39,509 nucleotides of DNA from Deltaproteobacteria bacterium (GTDB lineage: Bacteria > Desulfobacterota > Syntrophia > Syntrophales > Smithellaceae): NCBI GenBank assembly GCA_022711575.1, contig JAKLES010000003.1, positions 1 through 39,509 on the forward strand, in the 5' to 3' direction. The translations under genes and the position numbers were made by a program. Shown here piece after piece: positions 18 through 16,385 of the stretch. Each line of letters opens with the position of its first letter. The first letter of the stretch is position 1. Under the pieces are notes generated by a model, which saw only the letters and a list, made by a program, of their open reading frames with translations, was not told where the DNA came from and ran no database searches.

Positions 18-1574
18 ATGGGAGAGAACAGCATGACGCTCAATGACTTTCTGGACATCGTGAAGCGCCGGAAAAATTTTATTATCTGGCCGGCGCTGGC
101 GATATTCTTCACGGCGGTCCTCGTGGCTTTCCTGATTCCGCCGACCTATCGTTCCACCTCCACCATCCTCATCGAGGCACAGGATATCCCCCGGGAATAC
201 GTCATGAGCACCGTGACGAGTTATGCGGAAGAGCGACTTCAAACGATCAACCAGCGAATCATGAGCACCACCAGGCTCATGGAGCTTATCAACCAATTCA
301 ACCTTTACGCGAATGTGCGCAAGAGTTGGTCCATTGAGCAGATTGCCGAGAAGATGCGCCGTGACATCAAGTTTGAGACGATGAGCGCTGATGTGGTTAA
401 TAGGTATGGTAGATCAGGCAGTGCCACCATTGCCTTCAGCGTTGCGTACGAAGGCAATAAGCCTGATGTGGTCCAGCAGGTGGCCAATGCCCTGGCTTCC
501 CTGTACCTTGAGGAAAACCTGAAAATCCGTGAACAGCAAGCCACCGGGGCAACACGCTTCATCCAAGAGGAAATGAACAGCCTTCAGGCAAAGCTTGCGG
601 AAACGGACGCCAAACTGGCGACCTTCAAGTCCCGCAACCTGGGAGCCCTACCGGAGATGGTCCAGCTCAACCTCCAGAACGTGGACCGGATTGACCAGGA
701 TATTACCCGGCTCAACGACCAGCTCCGGACCCTCAAGGAGCAGGAAAAATACATCAAGTCCCAGAACCCTGACAAAAATCGGCTCCAGGACCTCCGGGCA
801 CAGCTGACCGATCTTGAGACTCGCCTTACGGATCAACATCCCGACGTGGTCATCATCAAGAAAGAAATCGCTCAGCTTGAGCGGCGCGTCAATAAAGCGG
901 AACAAGAAGGAAAAGAGAGTAGCGACTCTTACAACCACGCTTACAGCCAGTATGCTGCACAACTCTCCAACATCCAGTCCGAAATACGATCCATCGAGTT
1001 TCAGCTCGATACAATGACCAGAAAGCGAAACGTTTACCTGGGGCGTGTGTCCGCAAGCCCCGGCGTGGAGGAGCAATACAGGAACCTCCTGATGGAGCGG
1101 AACAACACGCAGGCCAAGTACGAAGATCTCATGAAGAAGGGTATGGAGGCCAATGTCGCCTACGGCATGGAGAAGGGTCAACTGGGTGAACGATTCACGC
1201 TCATCGAGCCCGCGCTCATGCCCGTGAAACCAGTGAAACCCAATATCCCGGCCATCCTGCTTATAGGCTTCATCCTGGGTATCGGGAGCGGCATCGGGGC
1301 GGCGTCCCTAAGGGAATTCAGTGACCATTCCGTCCGAACCAAGGAGGCCCTGGCCGAGGCCACTTCCATGACTGTCCTTGCGGGTATTCCGGAGATCGGA
1401 ATTCAACAGGATATCGACCTGGCCAAGAAACAGCGCTCGACCTGGATTATCGTCATTATTGCCGTCATCCTGGTGAGTCTGGTGATCGTTCATTTCCTGG
1501 TCATGGATCTGGATGTGTTGTGGGCCCGCTTCACCCGAAAACTGATCGGGATCGTTCCGGGCTTGTCTCCGTAA
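18..1574 (+). CDS. XrtA-type polysaccharide chain-length determinant (Wzz/GNVR family)
   Basis: A 518-residue inner-membrane protein that sets the chain length of an exported polysaccharide and works with the tyrosine kinase encoded just downstream. A first membrane segment lies at about residues 21-41 after a short cytoplasmic start. A long, mostly helical, coiled-coil-rich periplasmic region follows (about 170-400). Then come a proline-rich PVKPVKP stretch and a second membrane segment (about 412-431), and a third membrane segment sits near 475-496. This layout and length match the chain-length proteins of exosortase (XrtA) polysaccharide loci. An AGGGAG Shine-Dalgarno precedes the ATG at 18; the in-frame ATG at 33 is an alternative start. 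The kinase domain is separate rather than fused. The rest of the locus would lie left of the window. Confidence 0.85.
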   Translation: MGENSMTLNDFLDIVKRRKNFIIWPALAIFFTAVLVAFLIPPTYRSTSTILIEAQDIPREYVMSTVTSYAEERLQTINQRIMSTTRLMELINQFNLYANVRKSWSIEQIAEKMRRDIKFETMSADVVNRYGRSGSATIAFSVAYEGNKPDVVQQVANALASLYLEENLKIREQQATGATRFIQEEMNSLQAKLAETDAKLATFKSRNLGALPEMVQLNLQNVDRIDQDITRLNDQLRTLKEQEKYIKSQNPDKNRLQDLRAQLTDLETRLTDQHPDVVIIKKEIAQLERRVNKAEQEGKESSDSYNHAYSQYAAQLSNIQSEIRSIEFQLDTMTRKRNVYLGRVSASPGVEEQYRNLLMERNNTQAKYEDLMKKGMEANVAYGMEKGQLGERFTLIEPALMPVKPVKPNIPAILLIGFILGIGSGIGAASLREFSDHSVRTKEALAEATSMTVLAGIPEIGIQQDIDLAKKQRSTWIIVIIAVILVSLVIVHFLVMDLDVLWARFTRKLIGIVPGLSP

Positions 1575-1639
1575 TTAAGCCCAAAGTGCATTACCCCATG
1601 TAAATGGGAATCCAGATGTTACGAAGAATGGAGTTTTTC

Positions 1640-2521
1640 ATGAGTTTCAAAAACCTTTTCTCCCGAAGCAAAAAGGGTGAACCAACAATAGCCTATGTTC
1701 CGGCGAAGCCCGTGTCTCCGCATCCGCTGCCGGAAAAAGAAAAGACGGGCTGGTTCTCCCCGGTTTACAACCAATCCCGAGCCATCAAACTCGATCCGAA
1801 CACTCTGGAGAAAAATCGGCTTGTGGCCATGATGCCCGACCGACCTGAGAATGATTTTTACAAAGTCCTTCGCACCCGCATTATGAACCGCACTCACAAG
1901 CAGGGGGGCAAATCCATCATGATTACCAGTGCCCTGCCCGGCGAGGGTAAGACCGTTACCTCCATCAACCTCGCTTTGTCATTTACCAAGTTGTACGAGC
2001 ACACCGTACTGCTCGTGGATGGCGACCTCCGGATGCAGCAAGTGCATAAGCTTCTGGGTTACAAAAGCGATAACGGCCTTCAGGATTACTTCCTTGCTGA
2101 TAAGCCATTATCTGATCTTATTGTATGGCCCCATGTTGAAAAGTTCACGGTGATCTCCGGGGGGGAGACGATCCAGGCAAGCAGCGAGATTCTTACGTCG
2201 CCGCGAATGAAGGCACTGGTGGAGGAGATGAAGAATCGTTATCCGGAGCGCTATATCTTTTTCGATGCGCCCCCTATTCTCATCAGCGATGATGTCATGG
2301 CTTTTGCACACATGGTGGATTGGATCATCGTTGTCGTCCAGGCGGGAAAGACATCCATGCAGGACGTCAATCGCGCGCTCGATTTACTCCCGGATGAGAA
2401 GATACTGGGCCTAGTTTTAAACCGCCAGACCAGTCAGCTTAAGCGGTATGGATACGGCTACTATGGCTACGGTTACGGCTATGGCTATGGATACGGCCAG
2501 AAACCACCTAAACCATCCTGA
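1640..2521 (+). CDS. BY-type tyrosine autokinase of the exopolysaccharide locus
   Basis: A cytoplasmic bacterial tyrosine kinase (CpsD/Wzc kinase-domain family, XrtA-associated type) that cycles between autophosphorylated and free states to control polysaccharide polymerisation through its Wzz partner. From the ATG at 1640 it is 293 residues. Visible motifs are Walker A (SALPGEGKT, 97-105), Walker A' (VLLVDGDLR, 123-131) and Walker B (YIFFDAPP, 205-212). The C-terminal tail (270-286) alternates Tyr and Gly and holds nine tyrosines, the expected autophosphorylation cluster. The start at 1640 is preferred because GGAG lies 6 nt upstream; the in-frame ATGs at 1604 and 1628 lack a comparable site. 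It lies 65 nt after the chain-length gene and is followed by a strong terminator. Confidence 0.88.
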   Translation: MSFKNLFSRSKKGEPTIAYVPAKPVSPHPLPEKEKTGWFSPVYNQSRAIKLDPNTLEKNRLVAMMPDRPENDFYKVLRTRIMNRTHKQGGKSIMITSALPGEGKTVTSINLALSFTKLYEHTVLLVDGDLRMQQVHKLLGYKSDNGLQDYFLADKPLSDLIVWPHVEKFTVISGGETIQASSEILTSPRMKALVEEMKNRYPERYIFFDAPPILISDDVMAFAHMVDWIIVVVQAGKTSMQDVNRALDLLPDEKILGLVLNRQTSQLKRYGYGYYGYGYGYGYGYGQKPPKPS

Positions 2522-2631: not shown

Positions 2632-3309
2632 TTAAGCTTTGAATTTACGACGCAAACCCACCAGACCCAGAAGGCCGGTACCGAGGAGCCAAAGCGCAGT
2701 GGGGATAGGGGTAGCGACCAACACATCCTGAGCAAAACCGCCGTTAGCGTCAGTAAGATTTAATACGGCAACATTGTAAGCACCATTGTTGTCAGCGAAC
2801 GCATTACCAAACTTATTATTTACCAAATTGTAATAGGAGTTGGCTGCGCCACCTTCGCCTTCAAGATACCAAATTGCGTTTTGGAGTAAAGCGGCTGATG
2901 CTTCACGCTCTGCCTCTGTTCCGTTGAAAGCGTAGTTTACGAGTGTCCCTTTTGCAAATTCGGAATAGAGATATGCTGTGCCTATCGAAATAGGATCACC
3001 TGCCAAGCCTACACCACCCGTAATTGCATTGGTGTTAATAGCGGCATTATAAGTTCCGTTAGCGTAAACATGCTCACCAACTTCTAGGCAAAAAGTCTGA
3101 AATGTTGCAGTTCCCGCCAGACTGCTTTTCCCAGGCACGTAATTACCCAGAACCCAAGACAGATCGGCACTCGGTGCTAATGTGAATTCACCACCTAATC
3201 CCGTTTGATAGGGTCCATACCCATTTATAAATGTAACCTGGCTTGCCATCGCCATCGTTGTCAGTGTTAAAAACACGGACAACACCATAACCGAAATTAA
3301 TTTTTTCAT
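2632..3309 (-). CDS. PEP-CTERM protein with thioester-domain-like motifs
   Basis: A secreted 225-residue protein. It has a Sec signal peptide (residues 1-22, ending AMA) and a C-terminal PEP-CTERM sorting tag: TPIPTALWLLG, then a hydrophobic stretch, then RRKFKA at 200-225. The tag is cut by an exosortase (XrtA/EpsH), which is not in this window. The mature part contains only one cysteine, in FCLE (Cys74), and a downstream LQNAIW motif (Gln143). These resemble the Cys and Gln motifs of thioester (TED) domains, which form an internal Cys-Gln thioester bond able to attach covalently to other molecules. That function is an inference. The start codon is preceded by a strong GGGAGGAGG Shine-Dalgarno, and a sigma-54 promoter lies upstream. 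It is divergent from a second PEP-CTERM gene. Confidence 0.85.
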   Translation of the reverse strand: MKKLISVMVLSVFLTLTTMAMASQVTFINGYGPYQTGLGGEFTLAPSADLSWVLGNYVPGKSSLAGTATFQTFCLEVGEHVYANGTYNAAINTNAITGGVGLAGDPISIGTAYLYSEFAKGTLVNYAFNGTEAEREASAALLQNAIWYLEGEGGAANSYYNLVNNKFGNAFADNNGAYNVAVLNLTDANGGFAQDVLVATPIPTALWLLGTGLLGLVGLRRKFKA

Positions 3310-3374: not shown

Positions 3375-3391
3375 CAGCAATGTTCATGCCA
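3375..3391 (-). promoter_or_regulatory. Sigma-54 (-24/-12) promoter of the left PEP-CTERM gene
   Basis: Read on the minus strand the site is TGGCATG-AACA-TTGCTG. It matches the RpoN consensus TGGCACG-N4-TTGCW at all positions except one (C to T in the -24 box), with correct spacing between GG and GC. The predicted transcript start near 3363 gives a leader of about 55 nt to the ATG at 3309. PEP-CTERM genes are known to be driven by RpoN with the PrsK/PrsR two-component system in some bacteria. Confidence 0.75.
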
Positions 3392-3452: not shown

Positions 3453-3470
3453 TTGTAAAATAAATCGACA
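3453..3470 (-). promoter_or_regulatory. 18-bp PEP-CTERM element, copy A
   Basis: On the minus strand this reads TGTCG-ATTTAT-TTTACAA. Its centre is about 98 nt upstream of the predicted sigma-54 transcript start of the left PEP-CTERM gene, a usual distance for an enhancer-binding activator. It is one of four similar copies in this intergenic region. Confidence 0.6.
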
Positions 3471-3475
3471 CTTTC

Positions 3476-3494
3476 CAGGCATGCAAAATGCCTG
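3476..3494. repeat. 7-bp inverted repeat
   Basis: CAGGCAT (3476-3482) and ATGCCTG (3488-3494) are perfect inverted repeats around a 5-nt spacer. It lies between copies A and D of the 18-bp element and could be a small operator or a DNA hairpin. No assignment can be made. Confidence 0.4.
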
Positions 3495-3543
3495 ATATTC
3501 TCATGAATTGATAATTATCAAGCACTTATGTGGTATTTATACA

Positions 3544-3561
3544 TTGTAAGTAAATCCGACG
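3544..3561 (-). promoter_or_regulatory. 18-bp PEP-CTERM element, copy D
   Basis: On the minus strand this reads CGTCG-GATTTA-CTTACAA. It differs from the others at the first base of each half, with the same 6-nt spacer. It lies 91 bp upstream of copy A in the same orientation, so the left PEP-CTERM gene has two tandem copies facing it. Confidence 0.45.
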
Positions 3562-3687
3562 TTTAAAAAAGATGCCCTTAAGACTCGGAAAGGTGTCGTT
3601 GCTGAAAGTTGTGGTGTGCTTTGTCATAGTAGTCCGGGATTGGATGGAATAGCTCTTCCCGGAGCTTTTATCCTGCCCCATTTCAAA

Positions 3688-3705
3688 TGTCGAAATTCTT
3701 TACAA
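3688..3705 (+). promoter_or_regulatory. 18-bp PEP-CTERM element, copy B
   Basis: TGTCG-AAATTC-TTTACAA on the plus strand, pointing at the right PEP-CTERM gene. Over a 24-nt alignment it matches copy A at 18 positions. Confidence 0.55.
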
Positions 3706-3881
3706 TGTTAATAAATAAAAATTTATTGATTCATATTAGGAAGATATATCCTTTCTTTACTGCTGCTCACGGCTATAGCATGCGTAACTATTTTAAATTA
3801 TAAAACATAAGCCAATATATCGATAATATTTTGTAATTTCATGTATATAGATAAGAAAGGAAGCGATCGTGTTTTTTTTAG

Positions 3882-3899
3882 TGTCGGGTTATTTTACAA
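3882..3899 (+). promoter_or_regulatory. 18-bp PEP-CTERM element, copy C
   Basis: TGTCG-GGTTAT-TTTACAA on the plus strand, matching copy A at 16 of 18 positions. It lies about 165 nt upstream of the transcript start predicted from the weak sigma-54 candidate at 4028-4044. Confidence 0.58.
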
Positions 3900-4027: not shown

Positions 4028-4044
4028 TTGGAACAAATATTGAA
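4028..4044 (+). promoter_or_regulatory. Weak sigma-54 promoter candidate for the right PEP-CTERM gene
   Basis: TTGGAAC-AAATA-TTGAA keeps the GG of the -24 box and the TTG of the -12 box at correct spacing, but has TTGA instead of TTGC. The predicted start is near 4055, about 40 nt before the GTG at 4095. Support comes mainly from symmetry with the left gene. Confidence 0.35.
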
Positions 4045-4094: not shown

Positions 4095-4724
4095 GTGAAA
4101 CTGAAAAAACATTTTAGCGGATTAGGAAAGAGAATGATCCTTTTCTTCTGTTTGCTTTCTTTTCTTCTTTTCGCAACCAACGCATTTGCTGATTTTTACT
4201 ATTTCAACCTCACGATAGCCAATAGCGGTCTTAATGGAGGCTTGACGGATGATTACGCAAGGGTGACTGTTGAGCTAACGGATGCAAGTCTTGATCAAGC
4301 AACTATTACCTTTGAAGCCCTGGCCGGTTACAAACTGAAAAACAACCAGCTTGGTGTGCAGCTTAATGTTAATTCAACCAATTTTGTTAGTAATCCTCTT
4401 AGCGATTCAGGCAATATTAGTGAGTTTGGTTTTTTTAATGCTACCTACGGTCCAGATGGCGGCATCTATGACTCTTTTAGTTTCACCATCGATAATAATA
4501 GTGGAATTGATTGGCAATACGCATCAGATGTTCTCGTCCCCAACTGGGAAGGTTATCTCGCTGCTGCCCACATGATTCCGGTGGGTGCGGGTGGTAAACC
4601 AACTGGCGCCAGCACAGGCTATGCAGCCGGTCCAGGCAACCCCGTTCCCATCCCCGCTGCCATATGGCTCCTCGGTTCCGGTTTAATCGGACTGGTAGGA
4701 CTAAGGAGAAGGTTTAGGAAGTAA
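4095..4724 (+). CDS. PEP-CTERM sorting-domain protein
   Basis: A secreted 209-residue protein of unknown function. It has a signal peptide with a positively charged start and a hydrophobic core (about 14-32, ending NAFA). The C-terminal PEP-CTERM tag (about 184-209: VPIPAAIWLLGSG, hydrophobic segment, RRRFRK) marks it for exosortase processing and export to the matrix. The middle part is rich in Asn, Gly, Thr and aromatic residues, consistent with a beta-rich extracellular domain; no known catalytic motif is seen. The GTG at 4095 is chosen because AAGGAGG lies 7 nt upstream. An in-frame GTG at 4050 would add 15 residues in front of the signal peptide and has no such site. It is divergent from the other PEP-CTERM gene and has its own terminator. 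Confidence 0.85.
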   Translation: MKLKKHFSGLGKRMILFFCLLSFLLFATNAFADFYYFNLTIANSGLNGGLTDDYARVTVELTDASLDQATITFEALAGYKLKNNQLGVQLNVNSTNFVSNPLSDSGNISEFGFFNATYGPDGGIYDSFSFTIDNNSGIDWQYASDVLVPNWEGYLAAAHMIPVGAGGKPTGASTGYAAGPGNPVPIPAAIWLLGSGLIGLVGLRRRFRK

Positions 4725-5501: not shown

Positions 5502-6764
5502 ATGTTGCAAGAGCTTAAACGTCTGATCGAGCAGATGGGTAAGGACCGGGGTATCGACAAACTCATCATTACAGAAGCCCTCGAGGCCGCCATGCTGACG
5601 GCAGCACGCAAAAAGCTGGGGCCGGATGTGGATATTGAAGCCCACTACAATGATGATGCCGGGGAAATTGAGGTTTTCCAGTTTAAAACGGTTGTTGATA
5701 AAGTGCTCGATCCTGAAACACAAATTTCCAAAGGGGATGCCAGAAAAACCCTCGATGAAGGGGCGGAACCGGGTGACTCTTTGGGCATGAAGATCGAAAC
5801 CAGTTCCTTTGGCCGTATTGCCGTGCAAATGGCCAAGCAAATCATTATTCAAAGGGTTAAAGATGCGGAAAGTAACAATATCTATGATGAATACAAGGAC
5901 CGCAAGGGAGAGCTGATCAATGGTTTTGTTCAGCGTTTTGAAGGCGGCAACATTATTGTGAACCTGGGACGGGCGGAAGGCGTCGTGCCGCCCATGGAAC
6001 AGATTCACCGCGAAACCTACAAGCGCGGCGAACGCATCCGGTCTTATCTCTTTGAAGTGAAAAAGAACTCAAAAGGCGCGCAGATCCTTCTGTCGCGCAC
6101 GCACCCCGCGTTTCTGAAAGCGCTTTTTGAAGTGGAAGTGCCGGAAATTTCCGAAGGTCTGATTGACATTGTCAGTGTAGCCCGCGAGCCGGGCAAGCGC
6201 GGGAAAATCGCCGTGAAGGCCAAGGACAAGGACATCGATCCGGTGGGCGCCTGCGTGGGAATGCGTGGCACGCGCGTGCAAAGCGTTGTCCAGGAACTCC
6301 GCGGTGAAAAGATCGATATCATTCCCTACACGGAAGACGCGGCGAAGTTTGTCAGTAGCGCCTTGTCGCCCGCCAAAGTCAATCGGGTGTTTGTTGATGA
6401 GGAAAACCGAGCGATGACCGTCATTGTTCCCGATGATCAGTTGTCGCTGGCTATTGGGAAAAACGGTCAGAACGTTCGTCTGGCGGTTAAGTTGACCGGT
6501 TGGAAAATCGATGTGAAAAGCGAAACCATGGCTGCTGAAAAGGACGACGATGGACAGAAGGCGTTGACTAAGATCCCCGGCATCGGGCCGGCAATGGCGG
6601 AGAAACTCTTTGCCGAAGGCATCAAGAGTATCGCGATGCTGGCGGCGATGGAGCCGGAAGCGCTTTCCGAGATACCGGGCGTTGGTGAAAAAACGAGCAA
6701 GGAATGGATTGAAGAAGCCATCAGGCTTTTGGACGAGGAAACGAGCGATAGTAAAAAAGCGTAA
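5502..6764 (+). CDS. nusA: Transcription termination/antitermination factor NusA
   Basis: Binds RNA polymerase and controls pausing, termination and antitermination. From the ATG at 5502 it is 420 residues. An N-terminal RNAP-binding domain (about 1-130) precedes an S1 domain (about 132-200, GELINGFVQRFEGG). Two KH domains follow, with GACVGMRG and AIGKNGQN signatures. One helix-hairpin-helix unit lies at about 355-412 (IPGIGPAMAEKL). It is shorter than E. coli NusA, with a compact C-terminus instead of two long acidic repeats. ATG 5502 is chosen over the in-frame TTG at 5496 because GGGAGG lies 9 nt upstream of it. No ylxR gene separates it from infB. Confidence 0.95.
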   Translation: MLQELKRLIEQMGKDRGIDKLIITEALEAAMLTAARKKLGPDVDIEAHYNDDAGEIEVFQFKTVVDKVLDPETQISKGDARKTLDEGAEPGDSLGMKIETSSFGRIAVQMAKQIIIQRVKDAESNNIYDEYKDRKGELINGFVQRFEGGNIIVNLGRAEGVVPPMEQIHRETYKRGERIRSYLFEVKKNSKGAQILLSRTHPAFLKALFEVEVPEISEGLIDIVSVAREPGKRGKIAVKAKDKDIDPVGACVGMRGTRVQSVVQELRGEKIDIIPYTEDAAKFVSSALSPAKVNRVFVDEENRAMTVIVPDDQLSLAIGKNGQNVRLAVKLTGWKIDVKSETMAAEKDDDGQKALTKIPGIGPAMAEKLFAEGIKSIAMLAAMEPEALSEIPGVGEKTSKEWIEEAIRLLDEETSDSKKA

Positions 6765-6807
6765 TTTTTTTCAGGGACCCAATATTTAATTTGAGGGAGT
6801 TTCGGGA

Positions 6808-9450
6808 ATGGCGAAAAAGCGAGTTCACGAGTTGGCCAAGGAACTTGGTCTGGAGAATAAGGATCTGATTGCTCATCTGGAAAGATTAGGCATCACGGTT
6901 AAATCCCATGCCAGTACTTTGGAAGATAACGAGGTCGAAAGAGCCAAGGAGGACTTGCAGGCCACGTCGCCGCGGCAAATTGTCGAGGAAAGAATTAAAA
7001 CCACGGTTATTCGCCGCCGCGCGGTGCGGACACCGGTTGAGGCCGCCCCGGCCGAAGAAACCCTTGAGGAAAAAGAAGAAAGATCGGCAGCCGAAAAAGC
7101 CGCAGTGCCCGTCGCTCCGAAAAAAGAGGCTGCCCCTGCCGCGGCCGAAATATCCGAAGCTAAAAAAACAAAAGAAGAGCCGCCGACCTTGCAGCCGGCC
7201 ACACCTGTCGAAGAAGGCAAACCGCAAGTTAAGAAGGAAGAGCCGTCCGCGGAGGAGATCAAACCGCCTGCTGAGCCGGCGTTGCAGGCAAAGCCCGTGC
7301 AGACGACGCCTTTGGCCACACTGGAAAAACCCAAACAGCCGCCGGTAATTCTCCCGGTGAGGCCGCCCATGATGTCGCGGCATAAGATCATCAAGCCGGA
7401 TGAAAAAAAGGAAAGTCCGGCTAAAGCTCCTCTGAAGCCTGGGGAAAGAATTGTTACCCCGCCGCCGGAGAAAATCATCAAAAGAGAATTCGAAAAACCC
7501 AAGAAAAAAGGCAAAGGGCCGGTCGAAGTCTTCATTGAGGAGGAAAAAGAAGTTCCACGCCGCAAAGTGTTAGAGAAGAAAATTGAAAAGAAGTTAAAAA
7601 AAACCGATGACGATCGGGAAATTGTTTTCAGCAAATGGCGCGAAGAGAAAAAAGCCGCGCCCATCCGAATGAAGAAAACCGAAATTACGGTGCCCAAAGC
7701 CATCAAGCGACGCATCCGTGTGGGTGAAACGATTACCACCGGAGAACTGGCCAAAAGAATGGGCGTCAAGGTTGGTGATGTCATCAACAAGTTGATGGGG
7801 ATGGGCGTGATGGCCACGATTAACCAGTCCATTGATTTTGACATTATTACGTTGGTTGCCTCCGAATTCAGTTTCCAGGTGGAAAAAGCAGAAGTGGAAT
7901 TTGAAGACACGATGTTGAAACCGCAAGCCTCAGAAGAAAATCTTAAGCCGCGGGCGCCGATTGTTACCATCATGGGCCATGTTGATCACGGCAAGACGTC
8001 ACTTTTGGACGCGATCCGCCAGACGAATGTCATTGACGGCGAGGCGGGCGGCATCACCCAGGCCATTGGGGCGTATCATGTGCATATCAATGGCCGTGAC
8101 ATTGTTTTTCTGGATACACCCGGCCATGAAGCCTTTACCGCCATGCGTGCGCGTGGCGCCCAGGTCACGGACATCGTGGTTCTGGTGGTTGCGGCGGACG
8201 ACGGCGTTATGGATCAAACCATTGAAGCCATCAATCACTCCAAAGTGGCCGGTGTGCCGATCATCGTGGCCATCAATAAAATTGACAAACCGGGCGCCGA
8301 ACCCGAAAAAATCAAGCAGGCCCTCACTGAACATGGGCTTCTGTCCGAGCAGTGGGGCGGTGATACGATCTTCTGCGAGGTATCCGCCAAGAAGAAAACC
8401 GGCATTGAAGAACTGCTGGAGATGATCCTTTTGCAGGCGGATGTTCTGGAACTCAAGGCCGATCCCGATATGTCTGCACGCGGCATTATCATTGAAGCCA
8501 AACTGGACCGGGGCCGCGGGCCGGTGGCGACTGTGTTAATTCAGCAGGGAACGTTGCATGAAGGGGACGCTTTCGTCTCCAAAACCGAATTCGGCCGTGT
8601 CCGGGCGATGATCAACGATCAGGGCCGTCGCGTCAAGGAAGCCGGGCCCGCCATGCCGGTGGAAGTCATTGGATTTTCCAGCGTGCCCCAGACAGGTGCG
8701 GAATTCGTCTGCGTGGAAGATGAGAAGAAGGCCCGGAATATTTCCGATTACTGGATTCGAAAAACACGTGAAAAAGAGCTTTCCGCTTCTTCAAAAATTA
8801 CCCTGGAGCAGTTGTATCAGAAGATCAAAGAGGGTGTGAAAGATTTGAACGTCATTATCAAAGGCGACGTGCAGGGCTCTATCGAAGCGATTTCCGATGC
8901 CCTGTATAAGCTCTCTACGGAAGATGTTCAGCTCAAAGCCATTCACAGTTCCACAGGAGCGATCAGTGAAACGGACATCATGCTGGCCTCCGCGTCCAAC
9001 GCGATCATTATCGGATTCAATGTGCGTCCGGATGCCCGCGTGAGTGAATTGGCACAGCAGGAAGGTGTGGAAATCAAACTCTACGACATTATCTACAATG
9101 TCATTGCGGATGTCCGTGCGGCAATGGAAGGCCTCCTCGAGCCGGAATACAAAGAAGTGGTGCAGGGACGCGCCGAAGTCCGTGAACTCTTTAAGGTGCC
9201 CAAGGTCGGCATCATCGCCGGTTGTCATGTGACGGACGGGAAAATTCCCCGCTCAGCAGGCATTAAGTTGGTGCGGGACAGTGTGGTCGTTTTCGACGGC
9301 AAAATTCTTTCTCTGAAACGCTTTAAAGACGACGCCAGAGAAGTACTGGCCGGGTTTGACTGTGGTATAGGCATTGAAGGTTATAACGACATCCATGTAG
9401 GGGATGTGATTGAATCGTATATCATGGAGACCCTGGAAAGAAAACTGTAA
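6808..9450 (+). CDS. infB: Translation initiation factor IF-2
   Basis: GTPase that brings initiator tRNA to the 30S subunit; 880 residues. An IF2_N module lies at about 2-50. A long Lys/Glu/Pro/Ala-rich, probably unstructured linker runs from about 70 to 290. A second IF2_N-like module (about 298-360) precedes the G domain: G1 GHVDHGKT (390-397), G3 DTPGH (436-440), G4 NKID (490-493). Domains II-IV follow to the C-terminus. GAGGGAG lies 8 nt before the ATG. The repetitive linker produces long antisense reading frames that are not genes. Confidence 0.97.
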
Positions 9451-15209: not shown

Positions 15210-16385
15210 ATGAAAAAGCACAAAGTTAAAAAAACATTTCAGGAAATCAACGAAAAGATCAAGCAGGGGCGCGCCGTTGTCGTCACGGCTGAAGAAATGA
15301 TTGATGTCGTGGAAAAGCACGGTGATGTAGAAGCGGCGCGACGGATTGACGTTGTAACGACCGGAACATTTGGCGCGATGTGTTCTTCCGGCGCTTTTCT
15401 GAATTTCGGCCATACATCTCCGCGCATCCGGGCTTCCAAAGTTTGGCTCAACGACGTGCCCGCCTATGGCGGAATCGCAGCGGTTGATTGTTACCTGGGT
15501 GCGACAGAAGTGGTCGAAGGCGATCCGCTCAACAGTGTTTATCCCGGCGAGTTTAATTACGGGGGCGGCCATGTCATTGAAGACCTGGTGTCCGGTAATG
15601 CCGTTAAATTAAGGGCTGAAGGATATGGCACGGATTGCTATCCATCGCGCAAATTTGAAAAAAATATTACCATCAACGATTTAAGGGACGCCATTTTATT
15701 CAATCCACGGAATGCCTATCAGAACTATAATTGCGCAGTGAATCTGTCGGATACGACGATTTACACGTATATGGGCATGTTGCGTCCGCGCATGGCCAAC
15801 GCGTCCTATGCGACATCCGGCCAGTTAAGTCCGCTGTTCAACGATCCCTACTACCGCACGATTGGTATCGGCACCCGGATTTTTTTAGGCGGGGCTCAGG
15901 GTTTTGTGGCTTGGCCGGGCACACAGCATAATCCCAATGTGATAAGAGGTCCCAATGGTGTGCCCAAAGAGGGCGCGGGAACTATAGCCGTCATTGGCAA
16001 TTTAAAGGAAATGAGCCCTGAATGGCTGACCGGCGCCAGTATTTTAGGCTATGGCATTTCGCTGTTTGTCGGTATCGGCATTCCCATTCCCATTCTGGAT
16101 GAAGATATGGCGCGCTTCACCGCGGTGAAAGACGCGGATATATACGCTCAGATTTATGATTATAGTATGGACTATCCTAAAGGTAATCCTAAGCCCATAG
16201 CGGAAGTCAGTTATCAGGATCTTAGGAGCGGCACAATTACCATCGATGGTAAAAACGTCATTACCGCTCCTCTGTCCAGTTATTACAAGGCCAATCAAAT
16301 CGCCAATATCCTGAAAGACTGGATTGAAAGCGGCAAATTTCTGCTCGGTGAACCGCAACTGAGTTTACCTTTTGTCAATATTTAA
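15210..16385 (+). CDS. Homocysteine biosynthesis protein (HcyBio/DUF39)
   Basis: A 391-residue protein of the DUF39/HcyBio family. This family supplies sulfur for homocysteine synthesis from aspartate semialdehyde in methanogens and many anaerobic Deltaproteobacteria (L-aspartate semialdehyde sulfurtransferase). The whole chain is family-like: TTGTFGAMCSSGAFLNFGH (about 50-68) with a Cys, then YPGEFNYGGGHVIEDLVSG, then GIGTRIFLGGAQGFVAWPGT. No CBS or NIL-ferredoxin domain is fused, and no partner NIL/ferredoxin gene lies beside it. The start at 15210 has only a weak upstream site. Confidence 0.85.
   Translation: MKKHKVKKTFQEINEKIKQGRAVVVTAEEMIDVVEKHGDVEAARRIDVVTTGTFGAMCSSGAFLNFGHTSPRIRASKVWLNDVPAYGGIAAVDCYLGATEVVEGDPLNSVYPGEFNYGGGHVIEDLVSGNAVKLRAEGYGTDCYPSRKFEKNITINDLRDAILFNPRNAYQNYNCAVNLSDTTIYTYMGMLRPRMANASYATSGQLSPLFNDPYYRTIGIGTRIFLGGAQGFVAWPGTQHNPNVIRGPNGVPKEGAGTIAVIGNLKEMSPEWLTGASILGYGISLFVGIGIPIPILDEDMARFTAVKDADIYAQIYDYSMDYPKGNPKPIAEVSYQDLRSGTITIDGKNVITAPLSSYYKANQIANILKDWIESGKFLLGEPQLSLPFVNI

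Follow-up and report, generated by a model that had tools for sequence, protein, structure and literature searches.

The window, that is, the whole stretch of DNA that was analysed (39,509 nucleotides), contains two divergent genes for secreted proteins with a C-terminal CTERM signal. Between them lie four copies of a short element, two oriented toward each gene, and each pair is followed by a predicted sigma-54 promoter. The features are as follows.

18 to 1574, plus strand: polysaccharide chain-length determinant, a neighbour; the best model is of the XrtA system, below its cut-off
1604 to 2521, plus strand: polysaccharide tyrosine autokinase, a neighbour; over the TIGR01007 cut-off, with the XrtA-associated TIGR03018 below cut-off
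2632 to 3309, minus strand: left target gene, encoding a 225-aa secreted protein that carries a VPLPA-type CTERM signal at its C-terminus, ATPIPTALWLLGTGLLGLVGLRRKFKA
3377 to 3391, minus strand: predicted sigma-54 promoter, left gene, TGGCAT-GAACA-TTGC, 18.3 bits, 62 bp past the proximal box
3454 to 3470, minus strand: predicted PrsR box, left gene, proximal, TGTCGATTTATTTTACA, 20.3 bits; 18-bp form at 3453–3470, TGTCGATTTATTTTACAA
3545 to 3561, minus strand: predicted PrsR box, left gene, distal, CGTCGGATTTACTTACA, 20.2 bits; 18-bp form at 3544–3561, CGTCGGATTTACTTACAA
3688 to 3704, plus strand: predicted PrsR box, right gene, distal, TGTCGAAATTCTTTACA, 25.3 bits; 18-bp form at 3688–3705, TGTCGAAATTCTTTACAA
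3882 to 3898, plus strand: predicted PrsR box, right gene, proximal, TGTCGGGTTATTTTACA, 24.4 bits; 18-bp form at 3882–3899, TGTCGGGTTATTTTACAA
4029 to 4043, plus strand: likely sigma-54-like promoter, right gene, TGGAAC-AAATA-TTGA, 10.9 bits, 130 bp past the proximal box
4095 to 4724, plus strand: right target gene, encoding a 209-aa secreted protein that carries a VPLPA-CTERM signal, VPIPAAIWLLGSGLIGLVGLRRRFRK

Both target genes are open and have good signals, the N-terminal secretion signals having been judged by eye. Against TIGR03370 (cut-off 25.35 bits), the two proteins scored 33.8 and 22.8 bits, and a second profile search placed both over the cut-off. The sequence-only reading had called the pair PEP-CTERM genes. 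The CTERM signal is present in both, but it is of the VPLPA type, with no literal Pro-Glu-Pro. The most likely start of the right gene is the GTG at 4095, which follows AAGGAGG. No relatives of the left protein were found in a contig search. The window’s assembly (G000; 1.5 Mb in 370 contigs, 70% complete) has a third CTERM gene, on contig C146 at 6159–6827, with a box pair in front. Just upstream of that box pair, at C146:5746–5796 (locus L340), is a CTERM tail that lacks a gene body. The 6159–6827 gene has a nearly identical end and following terminator, so the tail looks like the remnant of a tandem duplication. Elsewhere in the window, positions 15210–16385 on the plus strand encode a protein that matches the methanogenesis marker 16 metalloprotein at 144 bits, below the cut-off, on what is a bacterial contig.

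A pattern search of the window placed the four copies at exactly the coordinates and on the strands claimed for them. The consensus proposed along with them, TGTCG-N6-YTTACAA, holds exactly for three; the copy at 3544–3561 on the minus strand reads CGTCG, a single mismatch. One box ends in CTTACA rather than TTTACA, a variant present in 12% of sites. For scoring, a 17-mer matrix was derived from 81 sites in other genomes. These sites had been found with the sequence-only consensus, so the matrix is independent in its flanking and central columns. The four boxes score 20.2–25.3 bits and the runner-up position in the 39.5-kb window only 11.6 bits; in 500 Markov-shuffled versions of the intergenic DNA the maximum was 15.1 bits. 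All boxes lie outside coding DNA, upstream of CTERM genes. In the whole assembly, a pattern search, used in place of the matrix scan that had been suggested, gave five exact 17-mer matches, compared with one for the reversed pattern. Three are window copies and two are on contig C146, at 5930 and 6030, and all five precede the assembly’s three CTERM genes. A repressor site and a transposon end were dropped on inspection, the copies being tandem, oriented and in register with the sigma-54 sites. No mobile element was seen on inspection, and the intergenic DNA had no match to plasmids. An IHF-like site, TATCAAGCACTTA, lies at 3516–3528 on the plus strand, between the two left-hand boxes.

The element has been described before. 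Haft et al. (2006, PMC1569441) reported a motif 1 of 17 nt, ending in TTTACA and sometimes repeated, upstream of proteobacterial PEP-CTERM genes. A sigma-54 site, their motif 2, comes 62.8 ± 10.6 nt (range 32–92) further on, and motif 1 was predicted to be the site of the response regulator PrsR (PMC1569441). The window boxes are alike in their 17-nt length, the TTTACA end, the repetition of some copies, the −24/−12 site that follows and the single-gene CTERM transcription units. Judged on the properties given in the text of that paper, rather than on its logo, the window boxes are motif 1. The statement of the sequence-only reading that no published match was known thus falls, and its proposal that the boxes are sites of PrsR acting with RpoN gains support from the length, end, repetition, sigma-54 distance and target class that motif 1 shares with them. 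The window and its relatives differ from the published description in two points: the spacers extend to about 130 bp in further classes roughly 11 bp apart, and the tandem boxes are phased; register is unmentioned in the text of Haft et al. (PMC1569441). The sigma-54 site of the left gene, at 62 bp, falls inside the published 32–92 range, whereas the sigma-54-like site of the right gene, at 130 bp, falls outside it.

Two other systems are informative. In Desulfovibrio vulgaris, DVUA0057 (PrsR) bound predicted PEP-CTERM promoters in vitro (PMC3333781, PMC4641369). The regulon resembles the window in its adjacent sigma-54 promoters; it differs in belonging to another lineage and in that its motif was assigned jointly to DVU0110 and DVUA0057. 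The PEP-CTERM gene pepA of Aquincola tertiaricarbonis is RpoN-dependent, with a mapped −24/−12 start and an upstream enhancer (PMC9850573). Unlike the window, this is a single experimentally mapped promoter, known without a demonstrated role of PrsR. On this reading, the two surface-protein genes are preceded by a regulatory switch that is already published, though little tested. The element is a known one and its earlier interpretation is supported; what is new is the helical register of boxes and promoters and the additional, likely promoter of the right gene.

The predicted promoter between the left box pair and its gene, TGGCAT-N5-TTGC at 62 bp, agrees with what had been noted there, and the CTERM gene on C146 has TGGTAT-N5-ATGC 61 bp past its box. 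A sigma-54 site had been seen on the left side alone, there being no GG-N10-GC site within 160 bp downstream of the right-hand boxes. The right gene, too, has a sigma-54-like site. The sequence at 4029–4043 is the top-scoring site within the 15–230 bp searched downstream of the right boxes, and it stands 51 nt ahead of the GTG start. Its −12 element has GA, not GC; TTGA variants recur, in register, at three other loci (L117, L179 and L170). Its 130-bp offset falls within a 126–132 bp mode shared with 12 other loci. From its position and sequence, we consider it likely that 4029–4043 is the promoter of the right gene, perhaps a weak one. Register with the sigma-54 site is a sharper rule for finding targets, and it recovered a likely promoter that plain inspection had missed.

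In other sigma-54 systems, enhancer sites can depend on the face of the helix. We took 78 box arrays, from Syntrophales relatives and the window, and for each recorded the highest-scoring sigma-54 site beyond its last box, on the downstream side. The sequence-only consensus had served to seed the list of sites, and the set is not independent by descent, most sites being supplied by three genomes (G034, G031 and G085). Sixty-five sites scored at least 9 bits, 63 of them within 160 bp. The offsets fall into classes at 61–68 bp (26 sites), 74–75 (5), 85 (1), 96–99 (4), 106–109 (10), 117–120 (3), 126–132 (13) and 152 (1), with class centres at about 62.6, 74.4, 85, 97, 107.5, 118.7 and 129 bp. The period is 11.2 bp (bootstrap 11.06–11.34), and 11.0 bp on omission of the first class (61–66 bp), which had supplied the sigma-54 matrix. 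Among 1000 random draws, uniform or jittered, none was as periodic. A generic sigma-54 consensus gave the same periodicity; its sites numbered 55, compared with 3 for the opposite strand.

A separate scan searched 84,980 species genomes (GTDB) for boxes with a strict sigma-54 site 81–111 bp away. It yielded, among the matches listed, at least 81 sites: 41 at 82–87 bp, 1 at 88–93, 24 at 94–100 and 15 at 102–111. At least 42 of the listed sites precede CTERM genes. Taken alone, the period among these listed matches is poorly fixed (best 12.0, bootstrap 10.7–13.0 bp); the troughs are clear.

Tandem boxes are phased as well, at 90, 100, 111 and 121 bp in Syntrophales. The left-gene pair of the window, 91 bp apart, falls within the 86–93 bp mode, and the right-gene pair, 194 bp apart, is outside the main spacing modes. 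A matrix scan between the right-hand copies found no degenerate third box (best −7.6 bits), so that a hidden third copy does not explain the 194-bp spacing. A pair-pattern search of 395 genomes of the phylum had matches in 8 genomes, too few for pair spacing.

DNA loops in living E. coli have 10.95–11.6 bp per turn (PMC1762422, PMC8501960). The agreement of this in vivo repeat with the offset period of about 11 bp suggests short loops with a fixed face. No report of register for PrsR was found in the open-access literature. It is quite probable that a register rule holds across distant bacteria, with box-to-promoter offsets of about 62.6 + 11n bp and tandem spacings of about 90 + 10.5n bp; the spacer lengths retained by evolution would then record an in vivo helical repeat of about 11 bp and point to small, torsionally stiff activation loops. 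If the rule is true, the window holds n = 0 (left) and n = 6 (right) back to back. Because of the register, sequence alone can be used to test the loop model of sigma-54 activation, and this in a natural regulon that occurs in many bacteria.

We propose, with a probability of roughly 0.86, that the four elements are upstream activating sequences of PrsR, two for each of the divergent CTERM genes, with sigma-54 promoters in register. PrsR would act as an NtrC-type response regulator that is phosphorylated by the kinase PrsK. Phosphorylated PrsR would bind the tandem boxes and form an AAA+ assembly, which would reach the RNA polymerase–sigma-54 complex by a short DNA loop and open the promoter through ATP hydrolysis. 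The right-hand loop, at 130 bp, would exceed the 62-bp loop on the left by about six 11-bp turns, leaving both in helical register.

The distribution of PrsR was followed in 118 relatives, 119 genomes with the window’s own. It is over the TIGR02915 cut-off in 18 of the 118, 17 of them at 588–649 bits; the next best match is 459 bits. Four of the PrsR genomes belong to the genus of the window (G005, G009, G014 and G017), PrsR being split over two stretches in G017. The motif tracks PrsR across these relatives. The 18 genomes with PrsR have 221 motif copies against 55 for the reversed control, and the 100 in which it was not found have 314 against 194 (Mann-Whitney p = 2e-8 on counts, uncorrected for descent). 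The earlier reading had named two outcomes that would count against it, a motif as frequent in unrelated intergenic DNA and a motif missing in front of other CTERM genes. The motif is instead present upstream of the genome’s other CTERM gene and of many CTERM genes in relatives, and it is at background in most genomes where PrsR was not found. Among these is G068, with 29 VPLPA-CTERM hits; since PrsR was not found there and the motif is at background (3 versus 3), its CTERM genes are probably controlled in another way.

In the window’s own 70%-complete assembly, rpoN was found (446.8 bits). The best TIGR02915 match there reaches 434.8 bits, under the cut-off of 502.6, and neither PrsK nor an exosortase (TIGR02602 or PF09721) was found. 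Boxes without a detected PrsR also occur in G085, G102, G018, G016 and G112; G085 (loci L161–L176) has 49 exact boxes against 3 reversed, the most of the 119 genomes. Exosortase, PrsK and PrsR were all undetected in G000, G018, G085 and G102, and G016 has an exosortase, with PrsR and PrsK not found. The three genes form one operon in G005, G014, G034 and G050. Since they are missing together, their absence probably reflects a single stretch that the assembly lacks; loss of this stretch from the genome itself is less likely. Contig C223, which carries the window, starts inside a polysaccharide gene cluster, so that an assembly gap is plausible; the prsR gene of this bacterium would then lie in the unassembled part of its genome. 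Completeness is 95% for G018, 100% for G102 and 89% for G085, and such figures for metagenome assemblies are compatible with a missing operon.

The boxes might instead be read by another NtrC-type regulator with the DNA preference of PrsR, as may be the case for DVU0110 and DVUA0057 in Desulfovibrio. We regard this as improbable. The occurrence of the motif in five genomes without detectable PrsR or PrsK (G000, G018, G085, G102 and G016) is in its favour, as are the single motif predicted for a pair of regulators (PMC4641369) and the seven regions of the window’s own genome that match the response-regulator model below the cut-off. However, the recognition segment of PrsR, SRPTLYD, is absent from all response regulators inspected in the box-carrying genomes with no PrsR detected, and those of the window’s own genome were rejected as PrsR on this ground. 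The best matches to the DNA-binding segment of PrsR are 23.7 bits in G000 and 34.3 in G085, compared with 111–112 for true PrsR, and loss of a single stretch already accounts for the joint absence of exosortase, PrsK and PrsR.

Still less probable is that the boxes are unused relics, left after the exosortase–PrsK–PrsR operon was lost. The 95–100% completeness of G018 and G102, where the three genes are jointly undetected, would fit such decay, and so would the imperfect sigma-54 site on the right. Against it, the sigma-54 site on the left and all four boxes are intact and keep register, both genes have open reading frames and good signals, and the start of the contig in a polysaccharide cluster makes an assembly gap plausible. 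That the boxes arose by chance, or from low sequence complexity in AT-rich intergenic DNA, is hardly credible: the tail of the motif is T-rich and matches with two mismatches occur in the window at about the chance rate (8 versus 5.4 expected), yet the boxes score 20–25 bits with an external matrix against a null maximum of 15.1, every exact match in the genome is at a CTERM gene, and the boxes are in register with sigma-54 sites. Activation by PrsR remains our preferred reading.

Boxes with sigma-54 sites also precede PilZ-domain genes, at L182:1548(+), L187:2424(-), L197:1230(+), L109:618(+), L252 and L212, where the L182 match is below the Pfam cut-off and L197 was assigned by its near-identity to L187. 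Such PilZ-type loci are found in Syntrophales and on gamma- and deltaproteobacterial contigs. The Syntrophales PilZ proteins have an N-terminal stretch resembling a ribbon-helix-helix fold, with a weak match in one. As possible c-di-GMP receptors, these proteins, if they are further targets, would link PrsR to c-di-GMP signalling. In Desulfotignum, at L207 and L210, the gene downstream of a box with its in-register sigma-54 site encodes a single-domain response regulator.
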